Shown here: one piece after another, positions 3,429 through 9,082 of the stretch
Numbering within the stretch: the stretch's first letter is position 1
Layout of the letters: each line of letters begins with the position of its first letter
NCBI GenBank assembly: GCA_030638665.1
Contig: DAOWEF010000028.1
Location: 1 to 11,040 of the forward strand
Direction: 5' to 3'
Length of the DNA: 11,040 nucleotides
DNA from: Dehalococcoidia bacterium
GTDB lineage: Bacteria > Chloroflexota > Dehalococcoidia > E44-bin15
Notes under the pieces: generated by a model
The model's database searches: none
What the model saw: only the letters and a program-made list of their open reading frames with translations
What the model was told of the DNA's origin: nothing
Program-made: the position numbers and the translations under genes

Positions 3429-5510
3429 ATGTCCAGGTCATTACCTTTAGAGCGGATAAGGAATATCGGAATTATAGCCCATATAGATGCGGGTAAAACA
3501 ACGCTTACCGAGAGGATCCTTTACTATACTGGCCGTACTTATAAGATAGGCGATGTGGATGATGGTACCACGGTGATGGACTGGATGACGCAGGAAAGGG
3601 AGCGGGGGATCACCATTACCGCTGCCGCTACTACGTGCCAATGGCTGGACCATCGCATCAACATTATCGATACCCCAGGGCATGTAGACTTCACCGCTGA
3701 GGTGGAGCGAAGCCTTCGGGTCCTCGATGGGGGTATCGTGGTTTTCGATGCGGTGGCTGGTGTTGAGCCCCAGTCGGAGACGGTCTGGAGGCAGGCGGAT
3801 GGCTATGGCGTTCCCCGGATTTGCTTCGTGAACAAGATGGATCGAATAGGTGCCGATTTCTACCGTACCGTGGATATGATCAGGGAGCGGCTGGGCACAA
3901 GTGCCCTGGCCATACAGTTACCCCTGGGAGCCGAGGACTCCTTTGAGGGCGTTATCGATATAGTTACGGAAAGGGCATGGGTCTTCTCTGATGACCCCAA
4001 TGAAAGCCCCGTGGCAGAAGCCATCCCTCATGATTATGAGGAGGTCTCAAGTAGGTATCGGGAGGCGATGATCGAGAGGCTTGCCGAAAGCGATGATCAG
4101 TTGATGACTCTCTACTTAGAAGGGGGCACCATCAATGCATCAGCTATTAAAGAGTCTCTCAGACGGGCTACCATAGCAAATCGAGTGGTGCCCGTTATTT
4201 GTGGCAGCGCCCTGCGGAATAAGGGCATACAGCCCATGCTGGATGCCATTGTTTCCTACCTTCCCTCACCTATTGATGTGCCACCGGTGGTGGGCATCGA
4301 TCCCAGAAATGGCAAAGAGCTTCAGCGCTCCCCCACCGATGGCGCTCCCTTCTCAGCCCTGTCGTTTAAGATAGTCTCCGACCCCTTTATCGGCAGGCTG
4401 GTCTATTTCAGGGTTTATTCCGGGAAGGTGGAGGCTGGGGCTCAGGTCTATAACTCCAGAAGCGAGCGTCGGGAAAGGATCGGGCGACTGCTTCAGATGC
4501 ATGCCAACCGTCGTGAGGAGGTCAAGCGGGTTGAGGCGGGCGACATCGCTGCCGCCCTGGGCTTGAAGGACACCTTCACCGGCGATACGCTGTGTCACAC
4601 CAGTACGCCCATCGTGCTGGAGACGATTCGCTTTCCCCAGCCGGTGATCTCGGTAACCATCGAGCCCAAGTCACGGGCCGAGCAGGACCGACTGGATGAT
4701 GCACTGACCAAACTGGGTCAGGAGGATCCCACCTTCATAACTCGTTACGATGAGGAAACGGGGCAAACGATCATTTCAGGGATGGGTGAGCTCCACCTCG
4801 AGGTGATCGTGGACCGGCTGCTCCGTGAGTTCAAGGTGGGAGCAAATGTGGGCAGGCCCAGGGTTGCCTATAGAGAGACCATCACCGTGCCAGTAAAGGT
4901 TGAGGGGAGGTTCATCAAACAGACTGGGGGCAGGGGGCAATATGGGCATGTCTGGATTGAGCTTCAGCCCAATAAGCGGGAGAGCGGCTTTGAGTTTGTG
5001 AACGGTATTAAAGGCGGTATTATCCCCAAGCAATACATCACCCCTGTGGAGAGCGGGGTCAGAGAGGCTATGGAGGGTGGTGTTTTAGCGGGCTACCCTC
5101 TGGTGGATATTAAGGCCACCCTTTATGACGGAAGCTTTCATGAGGTTGATTCCTCTGAGCTAGCCTTCAAGATCGCCGGCGCCATGGCGCTGAAGGATGG
5201 GGTGAAGAGGGCCAAGCCTATCCTTCTTGAGCCCGTCATGAAATTGGAGGTTGTTACCCCTGAAGGATTCATGGGTGACATCCTTGGAGACCTTAACTCA
5301 AGACGGGGTCAGGTCGCGAGAATCGACAGTCGTGTTACCACAAAGATAATTCGCTGCTTTATTCCTCTTGCCGAGACCTTTGGCTATGCTACCGACCTCA
5401 GGTCGATGAGCCAGGGGAGGGCGACCTTCGCTATGGAGTTTCATCGCTATGAGGAGTTGCCCCAAGATTTGGCAGAGCAACTCGTTGTAAAAGCGGGAGG
5501 AGTGGCCTGA
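3429..5510 (+). CDS. fusA: Translation elongation factor G
   Basis: EF-G is the GTPase that drives translocation of tRNA and mRNA and helps RRF recycle ribosomes. The 693-residue product has all five domains. GTPase motifs are AHIDAGKTT at 17-25 (P-loop), RGIT at 59-62, DTPGH at 81-85 with the catalytic His85, and NKMD at 135-138; GSALRNKG follows further on. Domains II to V are recognisable by [66 protein letters not shown] and the C-terminal [10 protein letters not shown] chose ATG 3429, which gives [14 protein letters not shown] and follows GAGG by 3 nt. A GTG at 3417 is in frame, would add four residues and overlap rpsG by 7 nt, but has no visible ribosome binding site. The stop overlaps the rpsJ start as TGATG. 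No tuf gene follows. Confidence 0.96.
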
Positions 5511-5888: not shown

Positions 5889-6524
5889 ATGATCGAAGGA
5901 ATCATAGGGCGAAAGATCGGGATGACCCAGGTTTTTGGGGAGGATAGAACGGTGTCTCAGGTTACCGCCATCGCCGCCGGGCCTTGCTTGGTGACCCAGG
6001 TTAAACGGGCGGAAAAGGAGGGCTACGATGCCATCCAGCTTGGCTTTGGCGAGGCGAAGCGACTCAATTCCCCGGAGAAGGGGCATCTCAAGAAGTTGGG
6101 TATGTTTAAGCACCTCAGGGAGTTTGCAGCAGCGGATGTTGCCTCCATCCAGGTAGGGCAGGTAGTGGATGTGAGCATCTTCAAGACTGGCGATCTCGTC
6201 GATGTCACCGGTACCTCCAAGGGGAAGGGCTTTGCCGGGGTGGTGAAGCGCCATCACTTCGCTGGAGGCCCCAAGACACATGGTCAATCCGACCGCCATC
6301 GCGCCCCGGGCTCCATAGGGGCAACCACTACCCCGGGTAGGGTGTTAAAGGGGAAGAAGATGGCGGGTCATATGGGGAATGAGCGGGTGACAGTGCGTCA
6401 TCTCAGGGTGATTGAGGCGGATGCGGAGCGAAACCTGCTCCTGGTTCGCGGGGCGGTGCCCGGCGCCAGAAACGGGCTGGTCACCATCAAGAAATCTACT
6501 GGCCAAGGAGAAAAACTTGTTTAG
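5889..6524 (+). CDS. rplC: 50S ribosomal protein L3
   Basis: L3 binds 23S rRNA early in 50S assembly and reaches toward the peptidyl transferase centre. The 211-residue product is full length. It begins MIEGIIGRKIGMTQVFGED and contains GTSKGKGFAGVVKRHHFAGG, then THGQSDRHRAPGSIG and the signature TPGRVLKGKKMAGHMGNERVT; it ends NGLVTIKKSTGQGEKLV. The Gln in THGQS is near the region methylated by PrmB in enterobacteria, but equivalence is uncertain. There is no strong Shine-Dalgarno before the ATG, only AAGAGA almost touching it. Its last codons carry the ribosome binding site and TTG start of the ABC permease, an 8-nt overlap. In the usual S10 order rplD follows directly; here two transporter genes intervene. 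Confidence 0.97.
   Translation: MIEGIIGRKIGMTQVFGEDRTVSQVTAIAAGPCLVTQVKRAEKEGYDAIQLGFGEAKRLNSPEKGHLKKLGMFKHLREFAAADVASIQVGQVVDVSIFKTGDLVDVTGTSKGKGFAGVVKRHHFAGGPKTHGQSDRHRAPGSIGATTTPGRVLKGKKMAGHMGNERVTVRHLRVIEADAERNLLLVRGAVPGARNGLVTIKKSTGQGEKLV
6505..6510 (+). promoter_or_regulatory. Ribosome binding site deciding the permease TTG start
   Basis: AAGGAG lies within the last codons of rplC, with exactly 6 nt before TTG at 6517. The only in-frame ATGs upstream (6412, 6421) lie deep in rplC and would add over 30 residues with no family resemblance. The TTG gives the typical short basic N-terminus of FtsX/MacB permeases directly before the first membrane segment. Confidence 0.8.
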
Positions 6525-7698
6525 ATTCGCTGTTTCTAACGCCTTCAGAAGAAAGGGGATCGCCATTTTCGCCATCCTGGGGACTGCCCTTGGTATTGCC
6601 CTGATGACGGTGTTGATCAGCATCACCGATGGCATGGACATTATGATGCAAGATATGATGAACGATTTAGCGGGAAGCATAGCGGTTTACCCTGCAGATG
6701 CCCCTTTGGGGTTTATGGCGGGTGGGGGCACACCCTTTTCAATTACCTATGTGGAGGATATCAATGATTTAGACCATGTGAAGGAAGTGAGTCCACTTGT
6801 TTTAGTTTTCATTCGCAGGGAGTTTGCCAACTTTGGTGACCCGATGGGTGTCACCCTGAGAGGGGTAGATTTAGCGGAGGATGCGGAGATGGATGGGCCT
6901 ACCGTCAACATAATTGAAGGTAGAACCATAACGCCGGGTGAGAACGAGATCATCCTGGGTAAAATTCTCTCTACCTTTGGCCGTGCACAGGGAGGGGAAT
7001 ACGCTGATATTGGTGGCACCATTGTCATGCCCGTGTCAGGGGCTGAACCTGTCGAGCTTAGGGTAGTGGGTATTTTCAATACAGACAGTAATATTTACGA
7101 TACGTTTATCTATACTGATATGGTCACTGCACGGGGCCTCGTTGGCATATCCGGCGATGAGATAAATTTCATCAATGTCGAAGCCGATAGCACAGATAAT
7201 GTGGAGGCGGTGTCAGATGCTATCGTGGCGCTGTTTGAAGATGAAGCGGTTCCAGTCCAAACTATTATCGCCACAGAGATTTTGGAGAATATCACTGAGA
7301 CCATGGGCACCTTCCGGAGCTTCTTGTGGATCATCTCTCTGGTTGCGGCGATAGCTGGCGGGGTCTCCATATTCATCGTTATGCTTATCTCGGTGATCGA
7401 GAGGACGAAGGAGTTCGGCATCCTCAAGGCATCCGGCTGGTCCAATAGGAACATCATCAGCTCGGTGGTGGTTCAATCGATCACCATTGGCCTTCTGGGC
7501 GCTGCAGTCGGGCTCGCCATCGGATATGGGGGGGGGCAGGGCATCGATGCCTACATTAACATAGATATCGCTATTGTTACGTGGGAGTTGGTGGCTATGA
7601 TAGGTGTATTCGGGATAATTGTAGGGGTGGTGGGGGGAATCTACCCCGCACTGCGGGCGGCGCGGGTAAGTCCTATAGAAAGCCTGAGGGCTTTATAG
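6517..7698 (+). CDS. ABC transporter permease, MacB/FtsX type
   Basis: A 393-residue inner-membrane permease of the type VII (MacB/LolC/FtsX) ABC superfamily. Translation from TTG 6517 gives MFRFAVSNAFRRKG and then a first membrane segment at about 14-36. An extracytoplasmic domain of about 230 residues resembles the MacB periplasmic core (GSIAVYPAD, VKEVSPLV, GVDL, then IIEGRTITPGENEIILG). Three more membrane segments lie near 269-293, 314-337 and 357-378. ERTKEFGILKASG at 295-307 is the coupling-helix motif after the second segment. The C-terminus PALRAARVSPIESLRAL is typical of the family. Family members act as mechanotransmitters or exporters of lipids, peptides, lipoproteins or drugs rather than as importers; the substrate here is unknown. 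It overlaps rplC by 8 nt, and the ATPase starts on the next base after its stop. No MacA-like adaptor is present in the window. Confidence 0.9.
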   Translation: MFRFAVSNAFRRKGIAIFAILGTALGIALMTVLISITDGMDIMMQDMMNDLAGSIAVYPADAPLGFMAGGGTPFSITYVEDINDLDHVKEVSPLVLVFIRREFANFGDPMGVTLRGVDLAEDAEMDGPTVNIIEGRTITPGENEIILGKILSTFGRAQGGEYADIGGTIVMPVSGAEPVELRVVGIFNTDSNIYDTFIYTDMVTARGLVGISGDEINFINVEADSTDNVEAVSDAIVALFEDEAVPVQTIIATEILENITETMGTFRSFLWIISLVAAIAGGVSIFIVMLISVIERTKEFGILKASGWSNRNIISSVVVQSITIGLLGAAVGLAIGYGGGQGIDAYINIDIAIVTWELVAMIGVFGIIVGVVGGIYPALRAARVSPIESLRAL

Positions 7699-8430
7699 GT
7701 GAGTGACATGAGTGAGCACAAAACTGGGCCTGAGGATCAACGGGAAAGCATTATAGTTACCCAAAAGCTAACTAAAATCTATGGTAGGGGGGCCACCAGG
7801 GTGGCGGCGCTCAAAGGGGCGAACATCAGGGTGCGGAAAGGGGAGTTAATTGCTGTGCTGGGACCATCGGGAAGCGGCAAGACCACCCTCCTCAACATGC
7901 TTGGTGCACTGGATCGCCCTACCAGGGGACAGGTGTTTATTGACGGTGTGGAAACAAGCAGTGTCCCGGAGCGGAGGCTTTACAAAATCCGCCGCGAGAA
8001 ACTGGGCTTCATTTTCCAGACCTATTACCTGGTGCCGACTCTGAACGCCCTGCAAAACGTGCTCATGCCCGTGTTGCCGATGAGGAAGAACAAGAGGTAT
8101 AAAAAAAGGGCAGAGGGGCTGTTGGAGCTGGTTGGACTTAAGGACCGCATGCATCACAAGCCGGGGGAGCTCTCCGGTGGCGAGCAGCAGCGGGTGGCCA
8201 TCGCCCGCGCTCTGATCCTAAATCCTGGCGTTATACTTGCAGATGAGCCCACTGGCAATCTGGATACTAAGACTGGTGCTGAGATCATCGGGCTGATGCA
8301 GCGGCTAAACAAGGAGCGTGGAAAAACCTTTATCGTTGTGACCCACGATAGCCGCATCGCCGAAAACGCGGAAAGGGTGTTTTATTTGATGGATGGCAGG
8401 CTATCCGATGTTCCCCCAGAGGAGAATTGA
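7699..8430 (+). CDS. ABC transporter ATP-binding protein, LolD/MacB type
   Basis: The 243-residue nucleotide-binding subunit partners the preceding permease and powers it from the cytoplasmic face. All motifs are intact: Walker A GPSGSGKTT at 55-63, Q-loop FIFQTYYLVPTL with Gln107, signature LSGGEQQR at 158-165, Walker B VILADEP at 178-184, D-loop NLD at 187-189 and the switch His216 in VVTHD. The wording around the Q-loop and DEPTGNLD is typical of the MacB/LolD/FtsE branch that pairs with FtsX-like permeases. The GTG at 7699 directly abuts the permease stop. An ATG at 7708, preceded by AGGTGA at 5 nt, is an equally good start and would remove three residues. rplD begins one base after its stop. 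The N-terminal extension of about 17 residues before the fold is hydrophilic. Confidence 0.93.
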   Translation: MSDMSEHKTGPEDQRESIIVTQKLTKIYGRGATRVAALKGANIRVRKGELIAVLGPSGSGKTTLLNMLGALDRPTRGQVFIDGVETSSVPERRLYKIRREKLGFIFQTYYLVPTLNALQNVLMPVLPMRKNKRYKKRAEGLLELVGLKDRMHHKPGELSGGEQQRVAIARALILNPGVILADEPTGNLDTKTGAEIIGLMQRLNKERGKTFIVVTHDSRIAENAERVFYLMDGRLSDVPPEEN

Positions 8431-8431
8431 A

Positions 8432-9082
8432 GTGGTGCAGGTTCCTGTTCATAATATACAAGGAGAGGTTGTCGACCACATCGCACTGAAGGATGAGATT
8501 TTTGGGGTGCCCTCGAACCAGGCGGTGGTGCATCAGGCCTTGGTGAGGCAGTTGGCTAATGCCCGTCAGGGCACGGCGAGCACCAAGACGCGGGCACAGG
8601 TTTCCGGTGGGGGGCATAAACCCTTCCGTCAGAAGGGAACGGGACGAGCAAGGCGGGGGAGTTCAAGCTCACCGCTGTTGCGGGGTGGCGGAGTGGCCTT
8701 CGGTCCTCACCCCAGGAGCTATCGTCAGGCGATGCCCAGGAAGATGCGCAGCCTGGCACTGAGGTGCGTTCTCTCGGCAAAGGTGGCCCAGGGTGAAATG
8801 ATCGTGGTGGATGAGCTCGCGTTAAACGAGCCCAAGACAAAGGAGATGGCTCGCATCCTGGCGGCATTGGGGGTGGGATCATCGGCCCTAATTATCACCG
8901 CCGAGCCTGATCCCAATGCGTATAAATCGGCGCGTAACTTGGAAAGGACGAAGACATTGCCTGCCAACTTGCTAAATGTCGGCGATCTCCTATCTCACCG
9001 GATATTGATGCTCACCGTGGCAGCGGTGCGGCGTGTGGAAGAGATGGGGACGCCGCAGCCGAGGAAGCTGGTAAAGACCTAA
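8432..9082 (+). CDS. rplD: 50S ribosomal protein L4
   Basis: L4 is an early 23S rRNA-binding protein whose long loop lines the polypeptide exit tunnel near the macrolide site; in gamma-proteobacteria it represses the S10 operon. The 216-residue product begins (M)VQVPVHNIQGEVV. The tunnel loop is seen as TRAQVSGGGHKPFRQKGTGRARRG and the KGTGRAR tip is wild type. RGGGVAFGP, then PRKMRSLALRCVLSAK, VVDEL and the Rossmann-like second half with ILMLTVAAVRRVEE complete the fold. I chose GTG 8432, with AGAGGAGA at 8418-8425 inside the end of the ATPase gene; GTG 8435 is one codon later, and ATG 8408 would overlap the ATPase in another frame. It starts 1 nt after the ABC ATPase stop, so its translation may depend on ribosomes leaving the transporter genes. 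Confidence 0.95.
   Translation: MVQVPVHNIQGEVVDHIALKDEIFGVPSNQAVVHQALVRQLANARQGTASTKTRAQVSGGGHKPFRQKGTGRARRGSSSSPLLRGGGVAFGPHPRSYRQAMPRKMRSLALRCVLSAKVAQGEMIVVDELALNEPKTKEMARILAALGVGSSALIITAEPDPNAYKSARNLERTKTLPANLLNVGDLLSHRILMLTVAAVRRVEEMGTPQPRKLVKT

Follow-up and report, generated by a model that had tools for sequence, protein, structure and literature searches.

An ABC transporter cassette between rplC and rplD in one order of Dehalococcoidia, with evidence for exchange of its outer domain between genera

The rplC-rplD junction is among the most stable gene neighborhoods in bacteria. Among the type VII (MacB/LolCDE/FtsX-like) ATP-binding cassette (ABC) transporters, LolCDE/LolDF and YbbAP function with no adaptor of the MacA type. 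The outer domain of MacB is carried by helical extensions of the transmembrane segments TM1 and TM2, and ATP drives its movement by mechanotransmission; the Gram-positive homolog YknXYZ protects against the lytic peptide SDP (PMC5985334, in the parts cited here). The str-S10-spc cluster can be invaded by genes that stay, and in the cited parts of PMC8046335, which concern Gammaproteobacteria and Bacilli, the insertions described lie within rpoBC or separate one operon from the next. Here, we describe a two-gene ABC transporter cassette located between rplC and rplD in an 11,040-bp stretch of DNA (the window), which is the whole of contig C33 (DAOWEF010000028.1) of the Dehalococcoidia genome G000 (GCA_030638665.1; 687,585 bp in 82 contigs, 67% complete). 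Most of the genomes seen of one order keep this membrane machine at a highly stable junction, with an outer domain that appears to cross genus borders. The gene order is a trait of the clade; the exchanged ectodomain is the part that a specialist would not expect.

A two-gene cassette in the S10 operon

Open reading frames (ORFs) and protein families confirm an intact permease gene and ATPase gene between the genes for L3 and L4, at the positions given in a preliminary description of this DNA (Table 1). As the ORFs are read, rplC and the permease gene overlap by 8 nt, permease and ATPase genes are separated by 0 nt and the ATPase gene and rplD by 1 nt. Start codons are predicted, and the frames of the permease gene and rplD stay open further upstream; the position of the permease start is shared with relatives, which have ATG (G010), GTG (G007 and G012) or CTG (G009) there. 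Both neighbors are full length, as had been claimed; L3 and L4 score above their family cut-offs. The tight packing on one strand suggests that expression of the cassette may be tied to that of the ribosomal proteins, as the preliminary description supposed. Between positions 5400 and 9600, neither promoter-like sites (4 versus 3.2 expected) nor terminator-like sites (4 versus 3.3) were in excess, and no known RNA families or tandem repeats were found in the window at the thresholds used.

By its profile matches, the permease has a MacB-like extracytoplasmic domain (MacB_PCD, 66.8 bits, cut-off 27) and a C-terminal FtsX domain (62.6 bits, cut-off 25.5). The ATPase matches the ABC_tran family and has all of the Walker A, signature, Walker B and H-loop motifs. 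Judged from these families the cassette is a type VII ABC pair, and adjacency suggests that the two proteins form one complex. Both proteins scored below every Pfam and NCBIfam equivalog cut-off shown, including those of the MacB model PRK10535 (51.2 bits for the permease and 214.4 for the ATPase versus 966), LolCE (79.1 versus 362.45), LolD (244.9 versus 307.75) and FtsE (202.9 versus 264.85). The ATPase-permease fusion of the MacB type was not found; the genes are separate, with the ATPase gene downstream. In a scan for PF02687, the cassette permease was the sole FtsX-domain protein in G000, G001, G002, G009, G007, G012, G010 and G014, which is well founded for G001, G007, G010 and G014 (94%, 99%, 96% and 95% complete) because the other four assemblies are incomplete; in G012, a looser scan also detected part of a second such permease, 44 residues long.

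Divergence within the permease gene

The permease alignment contains at least two ectodomain styles that do not follow kinship: one is present in G000, G012, G014 and the remnant of G013, the other in G001, G002, G009, G010 and G007, with G003 and G006 related to the latter. Between G000 and G001, which belong to the same genus, synonymous divergence (dS) is 0.17 in L3, 0.08 in TM1, 0.25 in TM2-4, 0.15 in the ATPase and 0.15 in L4, but the two ectodomain halves reach 1.8 and 2.3; for G001/G002 the ectodomain value is 0.27. In steps of 60 nt, identity between G000 and G001 is mostly 88-98% up to a border, 48-65% inside and 82-100% thereafter. The best two-border model places this sharply bordered block at window positions 6637-7302 against G001 and 6641-7316 against G002, corresponding to permease residues about 41-267, between TM1 and the FtsX domain, which starts at residue 271.

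We compared four-fold sites inside and outside the block in all 36 pairs of nine genomes, flagging a pair as more diverged inside at p < 0.001 and as less diverged at p < 0.01. The ectodomain was more diverged in seven pairs, including three within genera: G000/G001 with 13/49 identical sites (27%) inside versus 374/425 (88%) outside (p 1.3e-19), G000/G002 with 17/49 versus 174/198 (p 2.2e-13) and G007/G012 with 10/40 versus 338/417 (p 7.9e-13). The reverse was observed in another seven pairs, all between genera and all with G007 or G010, such as G001/G007 (61/79 or 77% inside versus 170/353 or 48% outside, p 2.8e-6), G002/G007 (68/84 versus 79/167, p 2.0e-7) and G010/G007 (60/81 versus 188/381, p 4.5e-5). 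The four-fold identity of G003/G006 is 0.47 both inside and outside, so the block is not inherently slow at synonymous sites. Neither rate nor selection at the protein level would be expected to make synonymous divergence lower inside the block than outside, and the pattern suggests transfer after the genera had split.

A wider sample came from a homolog search of a 5.8-billion-protein set, with at least 166 matches at E ≤ 1e-30 (best 8000 candidates scored). The 120 matches listed and the nine genomes gave 129 permease rows, and 42 chosen rows were used for trees and approximately unbiased (AU) tests. The tree of the TM part contains g1-like (11 rows, support 97), g6-like (9 rows, 98) and g9-like (4 rows, 59) groups, all of which are broken up in the ectodomain tree. 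In the AU tests the ectodomain data reject the g1-like (p 1.6e-65), g6-like (1.3e-53) and g9-like (5.3e-5) clades, and the TM data reject a clade of type-A ectodomains (17 rows, p 1.3e-50; without G010, 4.3e-4). Among 107 unique full-length rows, 305 pairs have a TM identity of at least 0.90, and in 38 of these ectodomain identity is below 0.60; the window or the protein P0001 takes part in 22 of the 38, and the rest are mostly with G003, G007, G010, P0028, P0057 and P0114. Conversely, in 36 pairs the TM identity is below 0.83 and the ectodomain identity is 0.80 or higher, and G007 or G010 is a member of 27 of these pairs. The G007 combination recurs in P0103, which was seen on 6 contigs. On these sequence comparisons, exchange of the ectodomain between genera, on a mostly vertically inherited motor, is well supported, and domain-sized recombination thus appears able to cross genera in uncultured Chloroflexota. 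This exchange, as well as the status of the cassette as a clade trait with a mostly vertical history and repeated losses, had been overlooked in the preliminary description.

Table 1 Features of the window
Feature	Position	Strand	Basis or remark
Type VII ABC permease (MacB_PCD + FtsX), 393 aa, TTG start	6517..7698	+	ORF, Pfam
Exchanged block, extracytoplasmic domain, permease residues about 41-267	6637..7316	+	Change-point borders
ABC ATPase (LolD/MacB/FtsE-like), 243 aa, GTG start	7699..8430	+	Catalytic motifs intact
Direct repeat GAGATCAT, copy 1, inside permease gene	6946..6953	+	
Direct repeat GAGATCAT, copy 2, inside ATPase gene	8281..8288	+	
rplC (50S ribosomal protein L3), full length	5889..6524	+	TIGR03625, 269.5 bits versus cut-off 142.9
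rplD (50S ribosomal protein L4), GTG start at 8432	8432..9082	+	TIGR03953, 244.2 bits versus cut-off 130.1
rpsL-rpsG-fusA-rpsJ-rplC-[permease-ATPase]-rplD-rplW-rplB-rpsS-rplV (rplV cut)		+	Gene order; ribosomal names other than L3 and L4 presumed from the sequence
purF (cut)		-	Presumed name
Alpha/beta hydrolase		-	Family match
TlyA-like methyltransferase		-	Presumed name

Distribution, losses and remnants

A search with L3 covered 60 genomes including G000, with loci for 30 matches and junctions read by tblastn; the order of G000 is represented by 15 genomes (G000-G014). An intact orthologous permease is present at the rplC-rplD junction in nine of the 15 (G000, G001, G002, G003, G006, G007, G009, G010 and G012), and the ATPase was also read in eight of these nine, the contig of G002 ending before it; the G006 contig ends inside rplD. 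In G014 the ATPase is present and the permease is broken by a short deletion and a frameshift (contig coverage 171). G008 and G013 carry a fused deletion remnant, in which permease residues about 1-146 are joined to the C-terminus of the ATPase; in G013 the fused frame is uninterrupted throughout, and in G008 there is an extra frameshift near the start. In the last three genomes (G004, G005 and G011), rplC adjoins rplD without a cassette.

Outside the order (45 of the 60 genomes), the cassette was found in none of the 17 junctions read (16 plus that of G036), at which rplC and rplD are close together, with spacings of about 320 nt in G055 and about 210 nt in G021. In 393 genomes of the class, 18 permease matches were obtained at E ≤ 1e-25, with only 4 candidates scored in genomes with many candidates; 12 belong to the same order and lie at the rplC-rplD junction, and the remaining six lie elsewhere and share 28-32% identity. 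With a different homolog as query (P0093), 10 of the 393 matched at E ≤ 1e-40, all from this order. A sample of 400 genomes of the phylum gave nine matches at E ≤ 1e-35, three from the order and six from other classes at 36-40% identity. No match above 40% identity was found outside the order in the class and phylum samples, and no ribosomal neighbors were seen by eye in the six stretches from other classes, three of which have a readable ATPase frame next to the permease (L074, L076 and L077). The matches from other classes outscore those within the class, suggesting an origin of the cassette in a two-gene family of Chloroflexota whose normal location is elsewhere. In the samples searched, the cassette is restricted to one order within Dehalococcoidia; the survey of rplC-rplD junctions, by which the preliminary description was to be checked, thus found the arrangement to be uncommon. 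That it is undescribed, as had been supposed, agrees with the literature: searches of open-license papers for a transporter in S10 or at rplC-rplD, for insertions in ribosomal operons of Chloroflexi and for FtsX in Dehalococcoidia found no account of it. Two observations were made alongside: the permease homologs of L072, L073 and L076 (other classes of the phylum, 36-40% identity) adjoin what we take to be the large subunit of a molybdenum hydroxylase, and one distant match (22% identity) came from L059, labelled Gammaproteobacteria.

A species tree of nine proteins, with S7 left out, groups G000 with G001 and G002 (100/99), unites the g3 with the g7 genomes (92/93), puts g4 close to them in an open fork, and has the frameshifted G014 branching outside the other family. 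Intact carriers stand on both sides of the g3, g7 and g4 genomes. The tree alone cannot separate gain from loss, and the best-fitting history is a gain that predates the divergence of the two families, with losses thereafter; the cassette would thus be mostly vertically inherited within the order, with repeated losses.

The two 8-bp copies of GAGATCAT (window 6946 and 8281) lie in the same reading phase in the permease and ATPase genes, and the join in the g7 remnants is at the place homologous to the permease copy. A deletion between the copies would yield an in-frame fusion of permease and ATPase, as seen in G013 and G008. Over a shared stretch of 117 residues, the intact protein P0048 is identical to G013 at 115 positions, and G013 and G008 agree at 99; with so near an intact twin, the deletion in G013 is probably recent, and the g7 deletions may be recent, independent events at the same 8-bp repeat. 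The remnants show a dN/dS of about 0.28 over 165 shared codons. Selection of the fused remnant as a new protein was considered and rejected, as the repeat by itself accounts for the fusion being in frame; no function is claimed. In G004, the spacer after rplC (L034, about 18710-18750) holds GTGCTTAAATTTGCCAG, which resembles a VLKF-type permease start (e.g., that of P0076) and is a possible scar of cassette loss.

Further open frames and fragments occur in this operon. In G007, an open frame between rpsJ and rplC (L036:9921-10880) represents a second insertion in the operon; it has an HD domain (PF01966, 58.2 bits) and matches an OB fold below threshold. G055, from another family of the class, holds at the rplC-rplD junction (L044:10423-10614) a fragment that corresponds to the end of the AcrB/RND family (PF00873, positions 968-1020 of 1021, 42 bits), the remnant of a second, unrelated transporter at this junction. 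In G014 (L043), long gaps with open frames lie between rplD and rplW and between rplW and rplB (about 11712-12321 and 12606-13030).

Explanations for the exchanged domain and comparison with known systems

We propose, at about even confidence, that the cassette was acquired and then inherited mostly vertically and that its ectodomain is a swappable specificity module for a variable external partner. The ancestor of the order would have gained the two-gene complex between rplC and rplD, where transcription together with its neighbors and translational coupling to the synthesis of ribosomal proteins are probable. If it works as MacB does, the permease would form a dimer whose extracytoplasmic domains move by mechanotransmission when ATP is bound in the cytoplasm, with no linked MacA-type adaptor. 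The class is taken as monoderm, in which case the exchanged domain would be exposed directly to the surroundings. Together with the precedent of YknXYZ and SDP, this leads us to favor a role in recognizing a variable external agent or in protecting the cell from it: the likeliest partner of the domain would be a peptide with antagonistic or lytic action or some other hostile agent at the surface, with antagonistic peptide, phage or signal as candidates. Homologous recombination, presumably anchored in the conserved coding segments of TM1 and TM2-4, would import a domain from another genus and yield new specificities, which may be the selective reason for the exchange. Such a cassette would probably link ribosome-coupled expression with a fast-changing surface. 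Tentatively, and with more doubt, we further suggest that it might be an S10-housed polymorphic locus for surface recognition or immunity, whose outer-domain alleles circulate among genera under frequency-dependent or arms-race selection and which, its expression being tied to ribosome production, every growing cell would display.

Several points weigh against these proposals. The cassette has no linked gene for a ligand, an adaptor or a substrate, so that the external partner is a guess. The cassette is dispensable, as six of the 15 genomes of the order are without a complete one. All seven less-diverged pairs involve G007 or G010, and the cross-genus signal therefore rests on two recipient genomes; the contig of G010 has a coverage of only 6, with no independent twin seen among the listed proteins, P0032 coming from a contig of matching length. 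The 36 pairs are not independent tests, the AU p values are not strictly a priori because the groups were named after the data had been seen, and the support of 59 for the g9-like clade in the TM tree is low. Exchange, as judged from the sequences, is repeated, yet neither constant nor universal. Furthermore, dN/dS in the ectodomain halves of same-type pairs is 0.18-0.45, below 1 and thus with no sign of point-by-point positive selection.

An alternative that we consider possible, if unlikely, is an endogenous partner or substrate: the complex would extract lipoproteins or lipids (as LolCDE/LolDF and YbbAP-TesA) or regulate an envelope enzyme (as FtsEX), and the exchanged domain would re-target it. 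The ATPase scores best against LolD, with DevA, MacB, YbbA and FtsE also among its best named models, and a profile search of solved structures returned MacB (5gko, 5nik and 5lil), the pneumococcal MacAB-like permease 5xu1, YtrF (9o9x), LolF and LolC/E, with 5gko and 5xu1 as the best matches. No HlyD/MacA-type adaptor gene is present in the operon, where the flanking plus-strand genes are ribosomal. PF16576, the sole adaptor family searched, had no match in seven of the nine intact carriers, several of these genomes being incomplete, as would be expected for Lol- or FtsEX-like complexes; in the 15 genomes it matched in G004 (over the cut-off), G009 (borderline, 30.6 versus 30) and G010 (sub-threshold). 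However, no partner gene is linked, the scores stay under the LolCE, LolD and FtsE equivalog cut-offs and, as an argument rather than a test, an endogenous partner should follow the species, leaving import from another genus unrewarded. As a separate observation, G004, which is without the S10 cassette, carries on its contig C24 (L071) a different FtsX-family permease and its ATPase; a match to an HlyD-type adaptor lies upstream, which makes the set MacAB-like.

It is improbable that the pair is a hitch-hiker in slow decay, tolerated in a strongly expressed operon, with near-neutral recombination replacing its ectodomain. The three genomes without a cassette, the two in-frame fused remnants and the one frameshifted permease among the 15 genomes would fit such a course, but the ATPase motifs are intact in all eight carriers in which the ATPase was read, dN/dS is 0.18 in the ATPase (G000/G001) and no higher than 0.45 in the ectodomain halves of same-type pairs, and the exchanged domains are full length and in frame in three lineages (G000, G007 and G010).

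A history without exchange, in which fast or convergent evolution of the ectodomain or differential sorting of old paralogs produced the pattern, is highly improbable. Other FtsX-family permeases of the same genomes served as controls, and their ectodomains also outpace the TM parts in amino acids. In the closest control (G013/G008, 788 aa), in which this holds as well, dS is nevertheless 0.27-0.93 in all 13 steps, without a jump of the kind seen in the cassette permease. Two control sets of G003/G006 are diverged throughout; one has a dS of 0.27-1.22, and the other (423/382 aa, 60-codon steps) has 0.63-1.1 with one step of 2.75 and one not computable, which would speak for this explanation but is uninformative at that distance. 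Within two genera the block is near saturation at synonymous sites, and between some genera it is less diverged than its flanks; rate differences are ruled out as the cause because they do not give both patterns. The borders are sharp and lie inside one gene. Fast evolution without exchange is thus rejected by the synonymous sites and the closest control permease, and the explanation is already contradicted.

The probability of an assembly chimera at the junction or inside the permease is negligible and this origin is already contradicted for the window, which is one short metagenomic contig (that of G010 being of low coverage), because the same junction recurs in other assemblies, with the permease directly after rplC in eight further genomes, excluding misassembly and chance and confirming the junction as real, and because P0001, a separate protein 94% identical overall (TM 96%, ectodomain 94%), repeats the window's domain combination.

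Type A and type B ectodomains on the same chassis offer a direct way of finding out what a type VII ABC protein recognizes through its outer domain. The cassette resembles the MacB/MacAB-like transporters (E. coli MacB; Streptococcus pneumoniae Spr0694-0695, PDB 5xu1) in its MacB_PCD and FtsX domains and shares with the pneumococcal system the separate chains for ATPase and permease. It differs from them in that no MacA/HlyD adaptor is seen at the locus, the permease precedes the ATPase, the genes lie inside the S10 operon and the ectodomain appears to be exchanged between genera. With LolCDE/LolDF and YbbAP it shares an ATPase that scores highest against LolD, whereas it falls below the equivalog cut-offs, has no linked partner and does not conserve its ectodomain. 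The pherotypes of Bacillus ComQXPA and pneumococcal CSP, as far as the sources drawn on describe them, likewise have a recognition part that varies in types while the rest is conserved. In pherotype systems the receptor and a linked signal gene vary in step, whereas the cassette has no linked signal gene and its variable protein is an ABC permease; the likeness is one of analogy, not kinship. Unlike the str-S10-spc insertions in the cited parts of PMC8046335, the genes described here encode a transporter and lie between rplC and rplD.

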